A stretch of 46,343 nt of DNA from positions 1 to 46,343 of IMG/VR virus record IMGVR_UViG_3300020027_000002. The stretch is one strand, 5' to 3'. Positions 128-9,315 of this stretch are shown here, piece by piece. Source of the stretch: a virus. Position 1 is the stretch's first letter. The number at the start of each line of letters is the position of its first letter. The position numbers and the translations under genes are program-made. The notes under the pieces are model-generated. The model did not search any database and was not told the origin of the DNA. It saw only the letters and a list, made by a program, of their open reading frames with translations.

Positions 128-765
128 GTGATGCGCCGAAGGTGTTGACGGCACCTGATGATACGCCGTTGGCAAACATAGTGTCACCAGCTACGATGCA
201 AGCTAATGCATTTCTTAGGGGAATGACAGTTGCAGACTTCAAAAGAAACATTGAGCAATCACACGGCGGTGGTACTGCCGATGCGAGTGCGGAAACAGGA
301 AACAATGGGGTACGCAGGTATTCTGATCCAACGAACCAATCCACAATTCCTAACAGTGCGGGTACTCGTGAGAGTAGTGACGACGACGCAGTAGTTCCCG
401 TATCAAAAGGAATGCAGGAGTATCTTGACAAGAAAGGACTTGTTGCAGACGCTCGTAATGCATTCTCACAGGCCGCACTTGAACGCATACCACTTGATGA
501 ACGCGAGAACTGGATCACTGATCCTTGGACGACCGATCTTGCGAATACACCGAAGCGTGAGACACAGGAATACGTTCGTGTCCGTAAGAAGGAAATCGAC
601 GGCGCAGGTCCATCACTTGCTGAAACAGTTGGTAAGAAGAATACAACCGAAGCTAAGCCGGTTGAAATCAAAACCACTCCGAAGCCGTACATGCGTGATG
701 GCAGATACTATCAGAAGCTACAACGCTCGGACGGAACGGAATACGAGGCTGCTGTAAATGGCTGA
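1..765 (+). CDS. Virion lytic transglycosylase, C-terminal part (gene split by the contig ends)
   Basis: This is the 3' part of the gene that starts at 45608. Base 1 begins a codon, and the joined product is 457 residues. The catalytic Glu lies in the other part. Residues encoded here finish the lysozyme-like fold (the A-x-W-F-L-G-P-G segment just after base 100 is typical of the end of an SLT/GEWL-like domain). They are followed by a polar, low-complexity tail of about 200 residues with Pro, Thr and Lys. The stop overlaps the start of the 1375-residue ejection protein by 8 bases, so the two are translationally linked. In podoviruses such enzymes travel in the capsid and locally open peptidoglycan during DNA entry. 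The frame is certain; the role is inferred from the motif and neighbours. Confidence 0.85.
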   Translation, partial: RTNPELSSRAYTVISGAYNGELARHNIPVTKANAYAAWFLGPGDAPKVLTAPDDTPLANIVSPATMQANAFLRGMTVADFKRNIEQSHGGGTADASAETGNNGVRRYSDPTNQSTIPNSAGTRESSDDDAVVPVSKGMQEYLDKKGLVADARNAFSQAALERIPLDERENWITDPWTTDLANTPKRETQEYVRVRKKEIDGAGPSLAETVGKKNTTEAKPVEIKTTPKPYMRDGRYYQKLQRSDGTEYEAAVNG

Positions 766-3700
766 CATTAATGAGCTACGTGATAGGTTCATGGCTGAAC
801 AGCAACGCATCCGTGGTGTGAACGATGACCAACGTCGTCGTGTATTGGAGAGTGGGGAACAGCAATTCAAAGGTAACCCACTCTCGCTTGTTCCATTGCC
901 GATACAACAACTAGAAGCCAACATAGCGGTAGCAGTGCCGCGTGCTGTGACGGATACAGTTACGATGGCTGGTATGGTGCCTCCGATGGTGCGTGCCGGA
1001 CTGTCAAGTGATGTCGATCTTTCAGAAGCCATGATGGGTAAGGAAGGTGAAGACGAACTGACTAACTATATCGCTACGACCGCACAAAAGGAATTTGATG
1101 AGTTACCCGAAACGGTCAAGAATGATACCACACTCAAAAACCTTCAACAGACTATTGCCAACAGCGCTGAAGCAGAAGATATCCGTCTTAAACACTCCAA
1201 TCCCGTTGTCAACTATGGTACAAAGGCAAGCAATGCGATTAACAAATCAGTTGGCCTCGGACGCGTCTCGCAAGAAACAAACACGGATGATCTTGAACAA
1301 CTCGCAGCCGGTGTTCTCATTCCTGCTGGCGGTGTTAGCCGTGCTGTTGGGGGTACTGTTCGGCGCTTTATTGGGGATAGCATTGCTGGTAAAGTTGCTG
1401 GAAAGGCTGCTGAACTTGCCGCCGATTTGACTGTTCCCGGCACAACGAATTACACAGGTAAGGGTATCGCAACCAATGCCGGTGTTCAGATAGGTGTTAA
1501 CGAAGGCATTCGACGTGCATACGATCTTCCCGCAATTACAACGGGAGACGCATTCCTGACAACTGCTGATGTCACTACTGGACAACCGGACGGAGCAATC
1601 AGTGCTCAAGTTGATCCGGATAGTGATCCGGAAGGTGGTATGGGTGGCTTCCAACGTGCACGTGATTACGCTGTCGAAGGCTCTATGGTACTCGGCGCTG
1701 TCTTTGCCGCAGGACGTGCCAACAAAGTTGCGTCGAAAGTTGCGATGGAGACGGTTGATGAGATTAACACTAATCACATTGCACCGCCAAAGGCTCCTCC
1801 GATGGACCCGCAACTCAAGCCGCATCAACGTCTCGCATCTGAGGTTGTAGACGAAGCTGCACCGCTAGGAGATAGTCTCTGGAACGCTGATCCTGACACA
1901 TTCGTCAAAGAGAAAGCCAACATTGACCGTGTTGTGTCGGACGCGAACAGCATTAACATACACGGTACGTATGATAACTTCCTGAACACAGGTAATCTGG
2001 ACAACCTGACACGCAAGACCATTCCGATTGCGCAGATGGAACACACGTTGACGCGTATGTCGCCACCAGATCAAGATGTGTTCAATAATGGTATGTTGGC
2101 GAAACGCTTGCTTGACAACTTCGCGGTGCGAACGAAGTCAATTGATGAGCAACTGTACATCGCACAGATACGCGGTGATCAGACACTGTTGCATGCACTC
2201 CTCAAGGAGAAGAGCGAACTTGGAACTGACGCTGATGCGTTCGGTGGCAAGATGACACACGCCGATGCAACCGCTGCTGCACAGGCACTCGACAATCATC
2301 CACAAGCGGGTGTGATCGAAGCGATGTATCAACAGATACAGAACGACGGTCTTGAAGCTGACTTGAATGGTGGTTATCAAACTATCAAGTCCATCGACAA
2401 GATGAAGAAAGCCTACCCGAACTACATGACGTTACAGGAAGACAACGACGCTGGTGTATCTTACATGGGTAAGTTGTTCAAGAACGAGTTCATGGGTAAG
2501 GGGAAGTGGGACCGTCCTCCCATGTTCAATGCAGTGCGTCCCGGTACGCGTGCAACGAAGGAAACTGGAACAGTCAAGAACCCGATATCTCCGATGGAAG
2601 CGATCAAGGATCAGTTCTATCGCCGCATCGCTGACTTCAAACGTAACGACGCAATCAAAACGTACGTCGAAACGATGAAGATGGCACTAGATCACGAGAA
2701 GTCGATACGTCATATAGAGAGTGTATCACTCGATGACTTCAACCGCAGTGACTTCGACAAGATGACGCAGAAAGCGAACTACATTGCGTACCGCGAAAAC
2801 GGTATGATCCACTATTACGAGACTGCTGATCCTGAAGTTGCACGTGCGTTGGAATTCAATGCTGGTGGCACGCTCACAGGCTTCAACATGTCGCGCAAAG
2901 TGAAGCAATCGTGGACAACTGGTATCTATCGACCGATCTTCGCTACAACTGCGATGAAGATGGAGAACAGCATCATCAAAGCAACGCGTCCAGCTGGCAG
3001 AAGTGCTGGTATGTTGGATGCGGGGCTACGTCGTGCGTTCCCGGATAGCAAAGCGCTGTCGTTTTGGCTTGACAAGTTCGGTACGAACCCTGTTCTGGAC
3101 ACATTCGCGTTGCAACAGCTTCATGCCATCTTCATGCAGAACAGCATGACTGCATTGAAGGCTGTGGGCACTGGTATCGGTGACGCACTCGCTGAGAACA
3201 CCGCATTTGGACGTGCAATCAAGGCTATGCCGGGTGGTGAACAGGTGCTTTCACGTACTGGTGAAATCATGGTGCGTACTGCAAACGAAAGTCGCTACAA
3301 TGCAGCACTGCATGCTAACGCTCTGAATGGTTCACTGCTCACGTCACCGCTTGATGGAGCAAAACAAGGCTTCGACGCTGTTGACTACGCTATGAAGAAG
3401 TCTGGACTGCGTTCAACGTACAAGGGCTACAAAGCGTTCATCGACAGTATCCACAACTCTGGTAAGTATGCCTTCTTTGCACAGAACTTCGCTGCATTGG
3501 AACGCAAACACGGTGGACGTGCAAACATACCAGCTGCTGAACTGAAAAAGCTCTCACATGAGACACGTGTTGCATCTGGTGACATGAGTAAGATCGTCGG
3601 TAACAAGACGCTACAGAAGTTGCAGTCAGCTACACCGTATTCGAGCATTGCTGTCAACGCAACGAGGCACCTTGCTTCCGCGATCATCAATGATCCTAAC

Positions 3701-4885
3701 ACACGTTGGCGCATTGTGTCCGGTTCGATTGCTCCGAAGGTTGCAATGGTCGGATTGATCACAGCTGCATCACCTGAGATGCGTGAGTGGTATTGGGATC
3801 ACCTTCCGTCGTGGCAGCGTTCACAGAACATCCCGATCATCGGTCCAGATTGGTGGATGGATGCAGCAAGTGGTAACATGCGTGCACTGACACCGAATGA
3901 CATGTACCTTGTACGTGAAGACCCGGGCATTGCAGCTATCTCAAGCTCAGTGGTTGCAGCATTGCGCTCACTTGGTGCATTCGGTGACGAACAACAGTCA
4001 CATGCCAACTTCGCACGTGAATTCAAGGCTGCGGTGGGGGGTTCAATGAGCGTACCGCTACCGCCATTCCTTGACTTGATGCTTGCTGGTGGTGACTTCG
4101 ATCCAACTGCGTTCTTGTTGGGCGATCCAACAATTTCGACACCGTACGAGGATCGTGTGCAGGGTATCAACACTGACCAGATCAACGCTGACAGCGACTT
4201 CTCTAAGGGTTGGATGACGACGATTGAAAGTCTTGCTGGTGTCGGTGCTGCGAACCTTGTCGGATCGATTGACGTTGGCGTACAAGCGTATGATAACACG
4301 AATGACTTCACAGATGCACTCAAACAGACGTTCCAGTACATGGTTTACACAGGTGAGCGTGCAGCTGCTGAGACACCCGGAGTTCGTGAAGCTGGTGCGT
4401 CATTGTTCAGTGGTGGACAACGTCGTATTTATGCTGGTACAGAACAACGCGGACGCGTGACGGAGAACTTCGCTAAGGTGGAAGGTATTCGTAAGCAACT
4501 GTCAATGGAGAAAGACACAAAGAACGTCGATACCGAAATGACAGATGCAGGGTTCCAAGGCATGCAGCGCATACAAGACCCACAAGTACGCTCGATGGCG
4601 CAGGAAATAAGTAAAGCATTCTACAGTGGTAAATTGAAGTCACTATCTAGTGAACGTGCATCACGTACGAAGAAACTCGCCATGTTGGAAGCACAGAAGG
4701 ACAGTGTATCACCAACTGTGTTCGATATGGAACACCGTAAGACTGTTGGTGAGATGCATGCACTTGACGCGCAGCAGGAAGCTTACATTGACATGTTCGA
4801 AGAGAGATTGCGCCAACAGTACGGTGTTGATATTGATGGCGCAATCGATGTTATTCACCAGTCACTAGGACGTGGTCAAGAGTAA
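758..4885 (+). CDS. Very large internal virion (DNA ejection) protein
   Basis: A 1375-residue protein, the largest of the genome and the last gene of the late arm. It starts at ATG 758 behind a GAGG-type ribosome site inside the end of the transglycosylase gene. The N-terminal part is charged and helical. Alanine/glycine-rich amphipathic stretches lie around residues 185-225 and 300-325, and long helical segments with few cysteines make up most of the rest. No enzyme motif was found. Size, composition and position after two other ejection-type proteins fit the T7 gp16-like role of a channel-forming ejection protein, but the transglycosylase domain that T7 gp16 carries sits here in the neighbouring gene. 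The role is inferred from context, not from recognised homology. Confidence 0.7.
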   Translation: MADINELRDRFMAEQQRIRGVNDDQRRRVLESGEQQFKGNPLSLVPLPIQQLEANIAVAVPRAVTDTVTMAGMVPPMVRAGLSSDVDLSEAMMGKEGEDELTNYIATTAQKEFDELPETVKNDTTLKNLQQTIANSAEAEDIRLKHSNPVVNYGTKASNAINKSVGLGRVSQETNTDDLEQLAAGVLIPAGGVSRAVGGTVRRFIGDSIAGKVAGKAAELAADLTVPGTTNYTGKGIATNAGVQIGVNEGIRRAYDLPAITTGDAFLTTADVTTGQPDGAISAQVDPDSDPEGGMGGFQRARDYAVEGSMVLGAVFAAGRANKVASKVAMETVDEINTNHIAPPKAPPMDPQLKPHQRLASEVVDEAAPLGDSLWNADPDTFVKEKANIDRVVSDANSINIHGTYDNFLNTGNLDNLTRKTIPIAQMEHTLTRMSPPDQDVFNNGMLAKRLLDNFAVRTKSIDEQLYIAQIRGDQTLLHALLKEKSELGTDADAFGGKMTHADATAAAQALDNHPQAGVIEAMYQQIQNDGLEADLNGGYQTIKSIDKMKKAYPNYMTLQEDNDAGVSYMGKLFKNEFMGKGKWDRPPMFNAVRPGTRATKETGTVKNPISPMEAIKDQFYRRIADFKRNDAIKTYVETMKMALDHEKSIRHIESVSLDDFNRSDFDKMTQKANYIAYRENGMIHYYETADPEVARALEFNAGGTLTGFNMSRKVKQSWTTGIYRPIFATTAMKMENSIIKATRPAGRSAGMLDAGLRRAFPDSKALSFWLDKFGTNPVLDTFALQQLHAIFMQNSMTALKAVGTGIGDALAENTAFGRAIKAMPGGEQVLSRTGEIMVRTANESRYNAALHANALNGSLLTSPLDGAKQGFDAVDYAMKKSGLRSTYKGYKAFIDSIHNSGKYAFFAQNFAALERKHGGRANIPAAELKKLSHETRVASGDMSKIVGNKTLQKLQSATPYSSIAVNATRHLASAIINDPNTRWRIVSGSIAPKVAMVGLITAASPEMREWYWDHLPSWQRSQNIPIIGPDWWMDAASGNMRALTPNDMYLVREDPGIAAISSSVVAALRSLGAFGDEQQSHANFAREFKAAVGGSMSVPLPPFLDLMLAGGDFDPTAFLLGDPTISTPYEDRVQGINTDQINADSDFSKGWMTTIESLAGVGAANLVGSIDVGVQAYDNTNDFTDALKQTFQYMVYTGERAAAETPGVREAGASLFSGGQRRIYAGTEQRGRVTENFAKVEGIRKQLSMEKDTKNVDTEMTDAGFQGMQRIQDPQVRSMAQEISKAFYSGKLKSLSSERASRTKKLAMLEAQKDSVSPTVFDMEHRKTVGEMHALDAQQEAYIDMFEERLRQQYGVDIDGAIDVIHQSLGRGQE

Positions 4886-6028: not shown

Positions 6029-6233
6029 TTGGTGTCCTTTCTTCTTGAATTTTGTACTCAGATGCGCCATTTGCTTTCTCAATGATATCTCTCCCTTCTT
6101 TTTCACTCACGTCCGTCATTACAACGTACATGTCCGGGTTGTTGCGTGATACTCGTGCGTAATAGAACGTAGTCTTGTTCTTCACAAGGATATACTCACG
6201 CTGTCTACGTGGATTGTCTTTAGCTGCGACCAT
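6003..6233 (-). CDS. Small unknown protein overlapping the 3' end of the polymerase gene
   Basis: A 76-residue product starting at ATG 6233 with a GGAGGGG ribosome site. Its first 52 bases lie inside the end of the DNA polymerase gene in another frame. It is basic at the N-terminus and has the aromatic motif TTFYYARV. No family was recognised. Such out-of-frame overlaps are the rule in this arm and suggest translational coupling to the polymerase. Confidence 0.6.
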   Translation of the reverse strand: MVAAKDNPRRQREYILVKNKTTFYYARVSRNNPDMYVVMTDVSEKEGRDIIEKANGASEYKIQEERTPSEENNPLG

Positions 6234-8710
6234 CTGTGTACCCCTCCTTCATCTGGGTATGACATCTTGGTATCGGCAGGGATAATCATTGGCCTACCCC
6301 CCACCATGATAGGTGCCTCAGCATACGCCTTCATTACTGACAGTGCCATCGGGATTTCATCGATTGGCCCTAGTGTAATGAGTGCATCATGAATGTTGAG
6401 AGCAACACGGCAATGGCGCGGCCAACGTGGATCATCTTCCGACTGATAAATCACCTGACAGACCTTGTCACCTATTGTGCTTTGCGGCTTAAATGCTACA
6501 ATACTTTCCAACGCCTCTGGACTTGGCCGCTCCATTAGTATAAACCTACGTCCGAAGGCATTAAACAATGCACCGTTCTTGCGCAATTCCGCTTCCAGAT
6601 CGGCCCACCAAACGCGAAGTTCAGGAGTTTCCCTATGGTACACTCTGTACGCAAAATCGGCTTCCGCGAGGGTGAGGCCCGCCGTGGTAGCCAGACGATC
6701 CGGTCCCATTCGGTAGTTAAGTCCATGTCTGCACCGTTTGGCAATGTAGCGAATAGTAACGTCACCGTGTCTCTTCCCTTCGGGTATCACGTGCCCTTTG
6801 GTAGCGTCGTAACGGTCGAAGGTGGGAACTTCCGCGTATGGAATTTTGAAGAGATCGGATGCTAGAGCGCAGTGCGCGTCGTATGATTTATCGGCGCGCG
6901 CTCGTTCGAACTGTTCAATCCATCTTTCAATCTTAGCAGCCCAACCAACGTATCGGGCTTCTGCTTGGCTAAGATCAAAATATCCGAACGCGTAACCCGC
7001 ATCAGCAATGAACATAGGATGCGCGCGGTCAGGCTGGTTTTGTAGGTTGCCACCGGACCCCCACAAAGTCTGACTTGAACTAAGTCGTCCGGGAGCGGAC
7101 TGTGTTCCAGTTTGATTGTAGGTGCAACGAAAGCGATTGTCTTCATCAGCCTGTGCCTTTACATATGTTGAGTTGAACTTCATTTCCTCAGCGAGTTTGT
7201 TGTGCACACTGAGTATCTTGCGGGATGCTTCGTTGGTACGCGGATGCTTGAACATCCTGTCGCGGTTCTCCTTATCGGTGGATACTCCGCGCCCGACCAG
7301 TTTCAACTTCGAGAAGTACAACTCACTCATCTGCTTGGGAGAGTTGATGTTGTAGTATTTCTCTTCGTTTATCTGTGCAATGATCAGCGACTGAAACTCT
7401 TCGGTCAGTGTACCAATCACATCGTTCATGCTTTCCTTCAAGTCTTCTTTCATCTTGGTGTCTAGCATGATGCCACCAACAGTCATGCGTGCAAGATGAT
7501 GTTGCAGCCTCATTACGTGACTGAAGAAGAACTGATCCAACCCTTGTGTGCGTAACTCGCCAAGTTCTTTCGCTTGGATTGATAGTAGGTGTGCGCAGTC
7601 TTTACCGTTGTATCGCCAGAAGTCATCGATGTCACCGCCGTCACGCCACTCGTCTTTCTCATCCTTGTAATAAGGGTTGTCAGTGTATTGTGTAGTAAGG
7701 AAACCCAGATTGTGCGGGAGGCGTGGGTAGAGTGTGTGATGCGCCAACATAGTGTCGAACCATAACTTAGGAAGGTACAGTTTATCTTTGTACCATTGCC
7801 AAGTAATATCGAACATTCCATTCTGTGCGATGAATTGTGTCCCCGATTTATATAAGCGTTGCAATTGCCTCCTGATATGTGCTTCTTCTCGTATGGTATA
7901 GACGTGATCTTTCTGTGTCCGCATTGCAATGCAGATAGCAGTTGATGACGTATCTGCGAAGCCAAAGCAAGCTGTCTGTCCGGAGATAGTTTCGATGTCA
8001 TGCCCGATCGGATCAGTACATCCAGCCGCTTGGTTAATGAAGCGGTCAATTTCACTGATACTCGGATATAGGAGAGTGGATACCTCAGTCGGCGCATGTG
8101 TTCCATCAAGTAACCTCTTGAAACGTGCGATGTCCATCTTGAATGTTACTTCAAGGAGTGGTTCACGTATGACAGCTGCTGCATTGTTGACGCACATGAC
8201 CTTAACTGTTCTTGTCCCACCGCGCACATGATCAGGTATAACGCAATCGAGAACAGAACCACGCCAACTTGTGATCCCCGAATGTCCGGTAAGGGCATGC
8301 AAAGCCATATTACCCATAGCGATGATGTAACGAACGTGAGGAAGATAACCCAACTCCCAACGTAACAGTTGGCCCCATAGATCAAGCTCATGTTTGTTCA
8401 CCGCTTTCTTGTGATCGGAGAATGAAACTTGTCTCTTCGACACGTTGGTAATGTAGAAGTCTTTACGAGTAAGTCCTGTGTGCTTCTGCAATGTCCGCCA
8501 CAATAGTGCACCCGAACCGCCAACAAGAGGGAGACGCTGTTGCACTTCTCTGTCACCGGGAGCTTCCGCAACGATAACCTTGTCGGAGAAAAACGTTCCG
8601 TCCATTGGACATTCAACTTTGAGGCGTGATCCTTCCGCACGGTTAATGAATTCCTGTCTGAGTGTTTGTAAGTTCCGTACGTAGTCTACTGACCCTTGAT
8701 CGATGTCCAT
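6182..8710 (-). CDS. polA: UDG-like domain fused to a family A DNA polymerase
   Basis: An 842-residue replicative polymerase. The start chosen is ATG 8710, with AAGGGA 11 bases upstream; an upstream in-frame GTG at 8743 has no ribosome site. Residues about 37-200 resemble family 4/5 uracil-DNA glycosylases (EAPG at 49-52, the AMGNMAL and LTG blocks). The usual HPS motif is replaced by VNN (174-176), so that domain may be inactive. Residues about 232-385 form a 3'-5' exonuclease with all acidic residues (D238, E240, D301, Y367/D371). The polymerase part shows motif A (D579-L-S-Q-A-E), motif B (R654, K658, H662, Y666) and motif C (H774-D775-A776). Pol I has Phe at the H662 position and HDE in motif C. 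It neighbours the dNMP kinase-like and helicase genes and is the obvious replicase. Confidence 0.95.
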   Translation of the reverse strand: MDIDQGSVDYVRNLQTLRQEFINRAEGSRLKVECPMDGTFFSDKVIVAEAPGDREVQQRLPLVGGSGALLWRTLQKHTGLTRKDFYITNVSKRQVSFSDHKKAVNKHELDLWGQLLRWELGYLPHVRYIIAMGNMALHALTGHSGITSWRGSVLDCVIPDHVRGGTRTVKVMCVNNAAAVIREPLLEVTFKMDIARFKRLLDGTHAPTEVSTLLYPSISEIDRFINQAAGCTDPIGHDIETISGQTACFGFADTSSTAICIAMRTQKDHVYTIREEAHIRRQLQRLYKSGTQFIAQNGMFDITWQWYKDKLYLPKLWFDTMLAHHTLYPRLPHNLGFLTTQYTDNPYYKDEKDEWRDGGDIDDFWRYNGKDCAHLLSIQAKELGELRTQGLDQFFFSHVMRLQHHLARMTVGGIMLDTKMKEDLKESMNDVIGTLTEEFQSLIIAQINEEKYYNINSPKQMSELYFSKLKLVGRGVSTDKENRDRMFKHPRTNEASRKILSVHNKLAEEMKFNSTYVKAQADEDNRFRCTYNQTGTQSAPGRLSSSQTLWGSGGNLQNQPDRAHPMFIADAGYAFGYFDLSQAEARYVGWAAKIERWIEQFERARADKSYDAHCALASDLFKIPYAEVPTFDRYDATKGHVIPEGKRHGDVTIRYIAKRCRHGLNYRMGPDRLATTAGLTLAEADFAYRVYHRETPELRVWWADLEAELRKNGALFNAFGRRFILMERPSPEALESIVAFKPQSTIGDKVCQVIYQSEDDPRWPRHCRVALNIHDALITLGPIDEIPMALSVMKAYAEAPIMVGGRPMIIPADTKMSYPDEGGVHRWSQLKTIHVDSVSISL

Positions 8711-9315
8711 TGTTCGTGCCGTCCCTTCGCGATCTTGCCACACTTCAGGGCAAGGATGTCCAATGCTTCATTGTTGTGTAGTTTCTCACACCGTGAGCCG
8801 TTAAGGCAAAAGTAACTTCGGCTATCGTATGAGTAGTCGCATCCTTCACGATGCATCTGCACGATGGAGTAGAACTCCTTACCCATACAGTTCTGTACAG
8901 GTATCTGTTCTTCTTCGAACCCCGCATCAGTCATGACGAACACGACTTCCTTAGCGTGCATACCGTAGAACTCAGTGTAGTTCGCTTCGAGAACTAACAT
9001 CTGTTCGACAAGCTTCTTACCGAAGAAGTCTGCACCGAACATAGGCTTCGCGTACTGTTCACTGAAACAGATGAGTGCTTGACGAAACGTGATGTCACGA
9101 CCGGGGATCAGTTGATCCTTCACACGTTCGATGTCAGCTTCGTTCATGGTAGGGAACTCACCGAATGCGTGCTTCGCTACTGTTGTCTTCAACCAACCAG
9201 CAGCCTTACACAAGATCGCGTGATACCCTAACGCTTCGAACTCAGTCTTGATGTAGAAACCCGCAGTGTCTTTACCGCTACGGGGTGGACCTTGTATCGC
9301 AACGCAGTGCATCAT
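8686..9315 (-). CDS. P-loop kinase, probably deoxynucleoside monophosphate kinase
   Basis: A 209-residue protein with an N-terminal Walker A loop at residues 9-17 (G-P-P-R-S-G-K-D-T), followed by the helix expected in NMP-kinase folds. The G-x-x-x-S-G-K-D-T form is typical of phage dNMP kinases of the T4 gp1/T5 type, which phosphorylate dNMPs for DNA synthesis. Four cysteines lie in the second half. The ATG at 9315 has GGGGAG nine bases upstream and overlaps the helicase stop as ATGA. The end overlaps the polymerase start by 25 bases. The fold is clear; the exact substrate is inferred from family resemblance and position between helicase and polymerase. Confidence 0.75.
   Translation of the reverse strand: MMHCVAIQGPPRSGKDTAGFYIKTEFEALGYHAILCKAAGWLKTTVAKHAFGEFPTMNEADIERVKDQLIPGRDITFRQALICFSEQYAKPMFGADFFGKKLVEQMLVLEANYTEFYGMHAKEVVFVMTDAGFEEEQIPVQNCMGKEFYSIVQMHREGCDYSYDSRSYFCLNGSRCEKLHNNEALDILALKCGKIAKGRHEQWTSIKGQ

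Follow-up and report, generated by a model that had tools for sequence, protein, structure and literature searches.

Position 762 (E. coli Pol I numbering) is the residue by which viral family A DNA polymerases (PolA) are sorted and from which phage life style is inferred, and the locus analysed here raises the question of what a histidine at this position means and whether it is linked to the UDG domain fused to the same protein. The window, i.e., the whole stretch of DNA that was analysed, is an IMG/VR viral record of 46,343 bp. On its minus strand an ORF at 6182-8710 (ATG start, with a further in-frame GTG at 8743) encodes an 842-aa protein with the order UDG, 3'-5' exonuclease, family A DNA polymerase, as indicated by Pfam, PHROG (PHROG 17, DNA polymerase, 6e-83) and an AlphaFold model. 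Pfam placed the UDG superfamily domain (PF03167, 1.4e-12) at residues 42-146 (8273-8587), the exonuclease domain (PF01612, DNA_pol_A_exo1, 9.8e-8) at residues 220-380 (7571-8053) and the Pol A domain (PF00476, DNA_pol_A, 3.2e-25, above the cut-off) at residues 434-794 (6329-7411), all on the minus strand. The exonuclease residues D238, E240, D301, Y367 and D371 are all present in the DEDDy motifs (D-E, N..D and Y..D), and the residues that define motifs A, B and C of family A polymerases aligned with D579, R654, K658, Y666 and D775. In motif A (D579-L-S-Q-A-E584; 6959-6976, minus strand) the equivalents of D705 and of the steric gate E710 are both retained; motif C (H774-D775; 6386-6391, minus strand) contains the equivalent of D882, and the next residue is A776 instead of the E883 of Pol I. 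The AlphaFold2 model (50-sequence input alignment) reached a mean pLDDT of 94.3, and a Foldseek search with the whole-protein model returned the Bst, Taq and Klenow polymerases on top. Judged from its sequence, the gene is the family A DNA polymerase of a phage, and its predicted proofreading active site is intact.

Its gene context makes this polymerase most likely the replicative enzyme of the phage: nearby genes encode dNMP-kinase-like, AAA_30/UvrD_C-type helicase, DUF669/SSB-like, Sak4-like annealing and MazG-like proteins (a weak PD-(D/E)XK match was also found among them), and terminase, portal and head genes follow further along the window on the plus strand. The dNMP-kinase-like gene (phrog_139; 8686-9315, minus strand) lies directly upstream of polA and overlaps it, which could hint at unusual nucleotides. 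Elsewhere in the window, a 1375-aa ORF (758-4885, plus strand) had no Pfam or PHROG match; it probably encodes a large virion protein, judged from length and position alone.

Motif B, on the O helix, reads R654-Y-I-A-K658-R-C-R-H662-G-L-N665-Y666 (6713-6751, minus strand), with R654, K658, H662 and Y666 exactly where the original prediction had put them. That prediction placed a histidine at the Phe762 position of Pol I, and several alignments agree with it, H662 (codon CAT, 6725-6727, minus strand) falling on F762 of E. coli, F667 of Taq and Y526 of T7. MAFFT L-INS-i paired it with F762 of E. coli Pol I and Y526 of T7, phmmer against Taq structures paired it with F667, and Smith-Waterman alignments with the E. 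coli, SPO1-like and FF47 polymerases paired it with F762 or its equivalent (the 762 site is outside the stretch aligned by Smith-Waterman with T7). K658 and Y666 set the register, so that H662 falls on F762; in the AlphaFold model H662 is predicted to lie inside a helix formed by residues 653-664. The window thus has His in place of the F, Y or L of the published viral PolA types.

The histidine is shared by the relatives of the window polymerase. In a tblastn search with the whole protein, all five named phage relatives with the top bit scores among the matches listed (Microcystis phage Mel-JY34, ctMlz233, Desulfofustis phage LS06, Caulobacter phage Kuura and Polaromonas phage Tiera) have His at 762, and, because the whole protein was used to find them, they were unselected for this residue. 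Alignment revealed His762 also in Aeromonas phage P5 and Pseudomonas phage PaMx43 (PaP2, 119X and others are at least 98.5% identical to PaMx43). No relative turned up when viral contigs were searched with the protein sequence of the window polymerase; PolA domains were gathered from viral contigs with degenerate DNA patterns (two for His, one for Phe and one for T7-like Tyr), and further samples came from a UDG-motif DNA pattern blind to residue 762 and from relatives of Mel-JY34. In the collected domains residue 762 was His in 216, Phe in 157, Tyr in 130, Leu in 8 and Trp in 1, numbers that represent sampling and not abundance, because part of the survey started from His-containing DNA patterns. 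Among the rare cases, the Trp is found in a polymerase fused to UDG (L215), and one Tyr polymerase (L177) is placed inside the His clade or beside it.

A tree of 171 rows, from which motif B and positions 710 and 883 were left out, placed 53 of the 54 His rows within a clade of 55 (SH-aLRT 92), and the 762 label required 4 changes on this tree vs 45.8 in shuffles. The rows nearest to the window all have His and form with it a fully supported set of six; the window shows the features proposed for the His clade, namely H662, N665 (Asn765) and the corresponding position in the tree. Two foreign rows are found inside the clade (L250 with Leu, L256 with Tyr), and one His row on a long branch (L323) is just outside; L250 looks like a later substitution because it retains the Asn765 of the clade. 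Next to the clade stand a few Tyr, Leu and Phe rows on long branches, and many deep branches of the tree are weak; an AU test on a 54-row subset did not reject a single His clade (p-AU 0.386). His762 is a fixed, inherited trait of one large clade of phage PolA, a fourth type beside Phe, Tyr and Leu. The distinct clade suspected at the outset is thus real, but the His type had also been called uncommon, and this does not stand, since two His patterns match many viral contigs, one of them at least 120.

The distribution of the His type is almost purely viral. The pattern K-x3-HGTNYG had at least 120 matches in viral contigs, and 113 of the 120 among the matches listed contained a PolA domain; in the GTDB collection (84,980 genomes) the same pattern matched 42 stretches, only one of which was a PolA fragment, so that the type is near-absent from cellular genomes and from the prophages captured there. 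The window yielded neither a tyrosine integrase (PF00589) nor a serine recombinase (PF00239). This, together with the near-absence from cellular genomes, fits a virulent life style, but does not prove it. Isolated phages with the His type are Pseudomonas phage PaMx43, Caulobacter phage Kuura and Microcystis phage Mel-JY34.

Other positions of the nucleotide pocket differ along with 762. Asn765 was present in 206 of the 216 His rows, whereas in Phe and Tyr rows this position is mostly occupied by Leu, Ile or Val and Asn is outside their six commonest residues. The steric gate Glu710 is replaced by Asp in 70 of 213 His rows vs none of 154 Phe and none of 129 Tyr rows (the window retains Glu, E584), and 197 of 206 His rows have Ala or Ser in place of Glu883, the residue after the Asp of motif C, a replacement that is common among Phe rows as well. 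The catalytic D705, K758 and D882 are retained, as are the DEDD residues of the exonuclease, which stand in conserved columns. The histidine seems to belong to a rearranged pocket. In Klenow, Taq and T7 polymerases, residue 762 lies beside the sugar and the beta-phosphate of the incoming dNTP, and Tyr at this site lowers ddNTP discrimination. By analogy, His662 on the O helix would occupy the place of the Phe or Tyr and could hydrogen-bond at the dNTP as Tyr does, and N665, one helical turn on, may support or hold it; with such bonding and support, ddNTP discrimination would be expected to be weaker in the His type than in Phe enzymes. The consequences of substitution at this site are known from T7, in which Y526F halved the activity and phage with Y526L formed no plaques on the wild-type host (PMC13228545). 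Neither F762H, F667H or Y526H mutants nor biochemistry of a His762 enzyme were found in the searched literature (subscription papers lie outside it). As a tentative extension, which we regard as somewhat doubtful, His762 and Asn765, often with Asp710, might form a functionally distinct dNTP pocket with its own sugar discrimination and fidelity that evolved once in phages and was overlooked by surveys confined to F, Y and L.

The original prediction had further proposed that the His clade is linked to the UDG fusion, and suggested looking for an N-terminal UDG domain in other His762 polymerases. Of 135 His-selected loci with 2 kb or more of upstream sequence, 134 had such a domain, N-terminal or in the adjacent upstream ORF (76 of 76, 35 of 36 and 23 of 23 in the three His samples), compared with 20 of 78 Phe-type and none of 70 T7-like Tyr-type loci of the same minimum length, all called with a profile built in this analysis that is somewhat more generous than Pfam (e.g., the UDG of FF47 was called by the profile but not by Pfam). 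Pfam recognised UDG in 50 of 50 aligned His proteins, which validates the domain call but not its frequency, because these proteins had been preselected for an in-frame UDG with our profile. The link is nevertheless not exclusive: in the UDG-motif sample, drawn without regard to residue 762 (loci with 2 kb or more upstream), position 762 was His in 22, Phe in 25, Tyr in 9, Leu in 4 and Trp in 1 (three of the Phe and one of the Tyr loci had no UDG beside the polymerase), and Pfam recognised a UDG in the Phe types SPO1L1 and Zuko. Thus, nearly all members of the His clade carry UDG, but UDG also occurs on many Phe-type and some Tyr-type and Leu-type polymerases. Read most simply, the UDG fusion would be a wider trait, and the His clade would have arisen within or beside UDG-fused polymerases. 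On the tree, the association of His with UDG is reduced to only 2-4 independent contrasts, too few to show co-evolution of the two.

The N-terminal domain of the window matched structures of family 4 UDGs in phmmer (Thermus 1ui0, Sulfolobus 4zbx). Its motif 1, AEAPGDRE (8546-8569, minus strand), retains both Glu of the consensus GEAPGxxE, with Ala in place of the first Gly. Motif 2, which is HPAxxL in many relatives, reads NAAAVI (8168-8185, minus strand), i.e., the catalytic-type His of active family 4 enzymes is replaced by Asn; most near relatives have NPA. Family 2 TDG/MUG enzymes also have Asn at this place. Motif 2 is retained in the polymerase of Mel-JY34. In the His subclade of PaMx43, Tiera and Aeromonas phage P5, Pfam recognised no UDG. 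The N-termini of this group (L005, L159, L161, L284 and L329) seem to consist of a shortened, degenerate UDG-like domain without the catalytic motifs. By hhalign (probability 77, E 2e-5) the short domain aligned with one half of the UDG profile, the WRGS half, and the best match of its structural model was a family 4 UDG, a weak match (E 5e-3) that is partly circular because UDG rows were in the input alignment of the model. The His clade shares the UDG fusion and sometimes lets the UDG decay, and the domain is probably a DNA-binding or uracil-sensing module not causally tied to the histidine.

Many His-type polymerase genes are split. In about 60 loci (L009-L126) and in Caulobacter phage Kuura (L004, 7935-11339), a UDG-exonuclease ORF of ~365 aa stops between exonuclease motifs II and III, and a second ORF of ~520 aa comprises exonuclease motif III and the polymerase. 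The gap usually measures ~530 bp and holds between one and three small ORFs (DUF3310 in some cases), and the halves abut in L107 and L018. A second split point, just after NLQN-x-P and before motif A, is common to nine loci (L031, minus strand, 11258 onward; L016, minus strand, 1732 onward; L022, L062, L141, L145, L146, L147 and L152); between these halves L031 has a dUTPase (PF00692, 6.5e-24), L016 a weak dUTPase match (5e-4) and L152 a methyltransferase-like ORF. An Rfam intron search of ten split-gene relatives gave no match, and the intervening ORFs, where they could be named, are ordinary phage genes.

How, then, is the histidine best explained? One could regard it as a private mutation, a sequencing error or a misalignment without meaning for any clade, given the low identity to Pol I and a motif B that otherwise differs from it (N761 -> R, I765 -> N), but independent relatives, collected without regard to residue 762, all have the histidine and several alignment methods agree, and we reject this reading as extremely improbable. 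The histidine might instead be an adaptation of the active site to unusual nucleotides, such as those of modified or uracil-containing phage DNA. The dNMP-kinase-like gene directly preceding polA, the MazG-like gene nearby and the Asp at position 710 in a third of the His set would speak for such an adaptation; the window ORFs that were scanned, however, included no recognisable gene for base hypermodification or for a dUTPase, and the clade spans many phage groups that differ in gene content, so that we consider it quite improbable.

A functional coupling of His762 and UDG, in which the His active site evolved along with uracil handling by the fused glycosylase, would account for the high frequency of UDG in His loci relative to the Phe and T7-like Tyr loci and for the dUTPase gene between the polymerase halves of one split-gene relative. 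It is nonetheless unlikely: the 762-blind UDG sample is mixed, the association amounts to the few contrasts given above, the window's UDG lacks the motif-2 His, and the PaMx43/Tiera group has lost both UDG catalytic motifs while retaining His762. We think it probable that this phage family A polymerase owes its His762 to a clade-wide inherited type, the UDG being a wider fusion not causally tied to it.

The published types of viral PolA at position 762 are, in the accessible parts of these sources, Phe, Tyr and Leu (Nasko 2018, PMC6302109; Keown 2022, PMC9069017; Keown 2026, PMC13228545). The screen of Keown 2022 let pass F, L and Y at 762 and no other residue (PMC9069017), a filter that excludes His by design, so that a His class could not appear there; Nasko 2018 refers to nine deviant sequences but, in its accessible part, does not say which residue they have (PMC6302109). 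A description of a His762 phage polymerase was not found in the searched literature (subscription papers excepted), nor was anything specific on a UDG-PolA fusion. A fourth, clade-wide type has been discarded by the screen of at least one survey, and virioplankton polymerase censuses have therefore missed a branch. Beyond classification, Tyr or Phe at this site underlies the enzymes of Sanger sequencing. The His-Asn pair represents a natural test of rewired nucleotide selection, and the isolates that carry the trait (PaMx43 with its near-identical kin, Kuura and Mel-JY34) make the His type directly testable.

Compared with known systems, the His type corresponds to the Phe, Tyr and Leu types in family, in position and in that the residue tracks the clade, but is itself undescribed in the accessible parts of those surveys. 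The SPO1-type polymerases (Spounavirinae; SPO1L1, Exiguobacterium phage 132) are fusions of UDG, exonuclease and Pol A like the polymerase of the window (in SPO1L1 confirmed by Pfam), but they have Phe762 and occupy a separate part of the tree, whereas the window has His762 and is not placed with them. To family 4 UDGs the N-terminal domain of the window is detectably homologous, but it has Asn instead of their motif-2 His. The polymerase of PaMx43 has His762 in a motif B reading H-G-T-N-Y and falls within the His clade like that of the window, but its N-terminal domain is a degenerate UDG-like remnant unrecognised by Pfam, whereas that of the window is a Pfam UDG.
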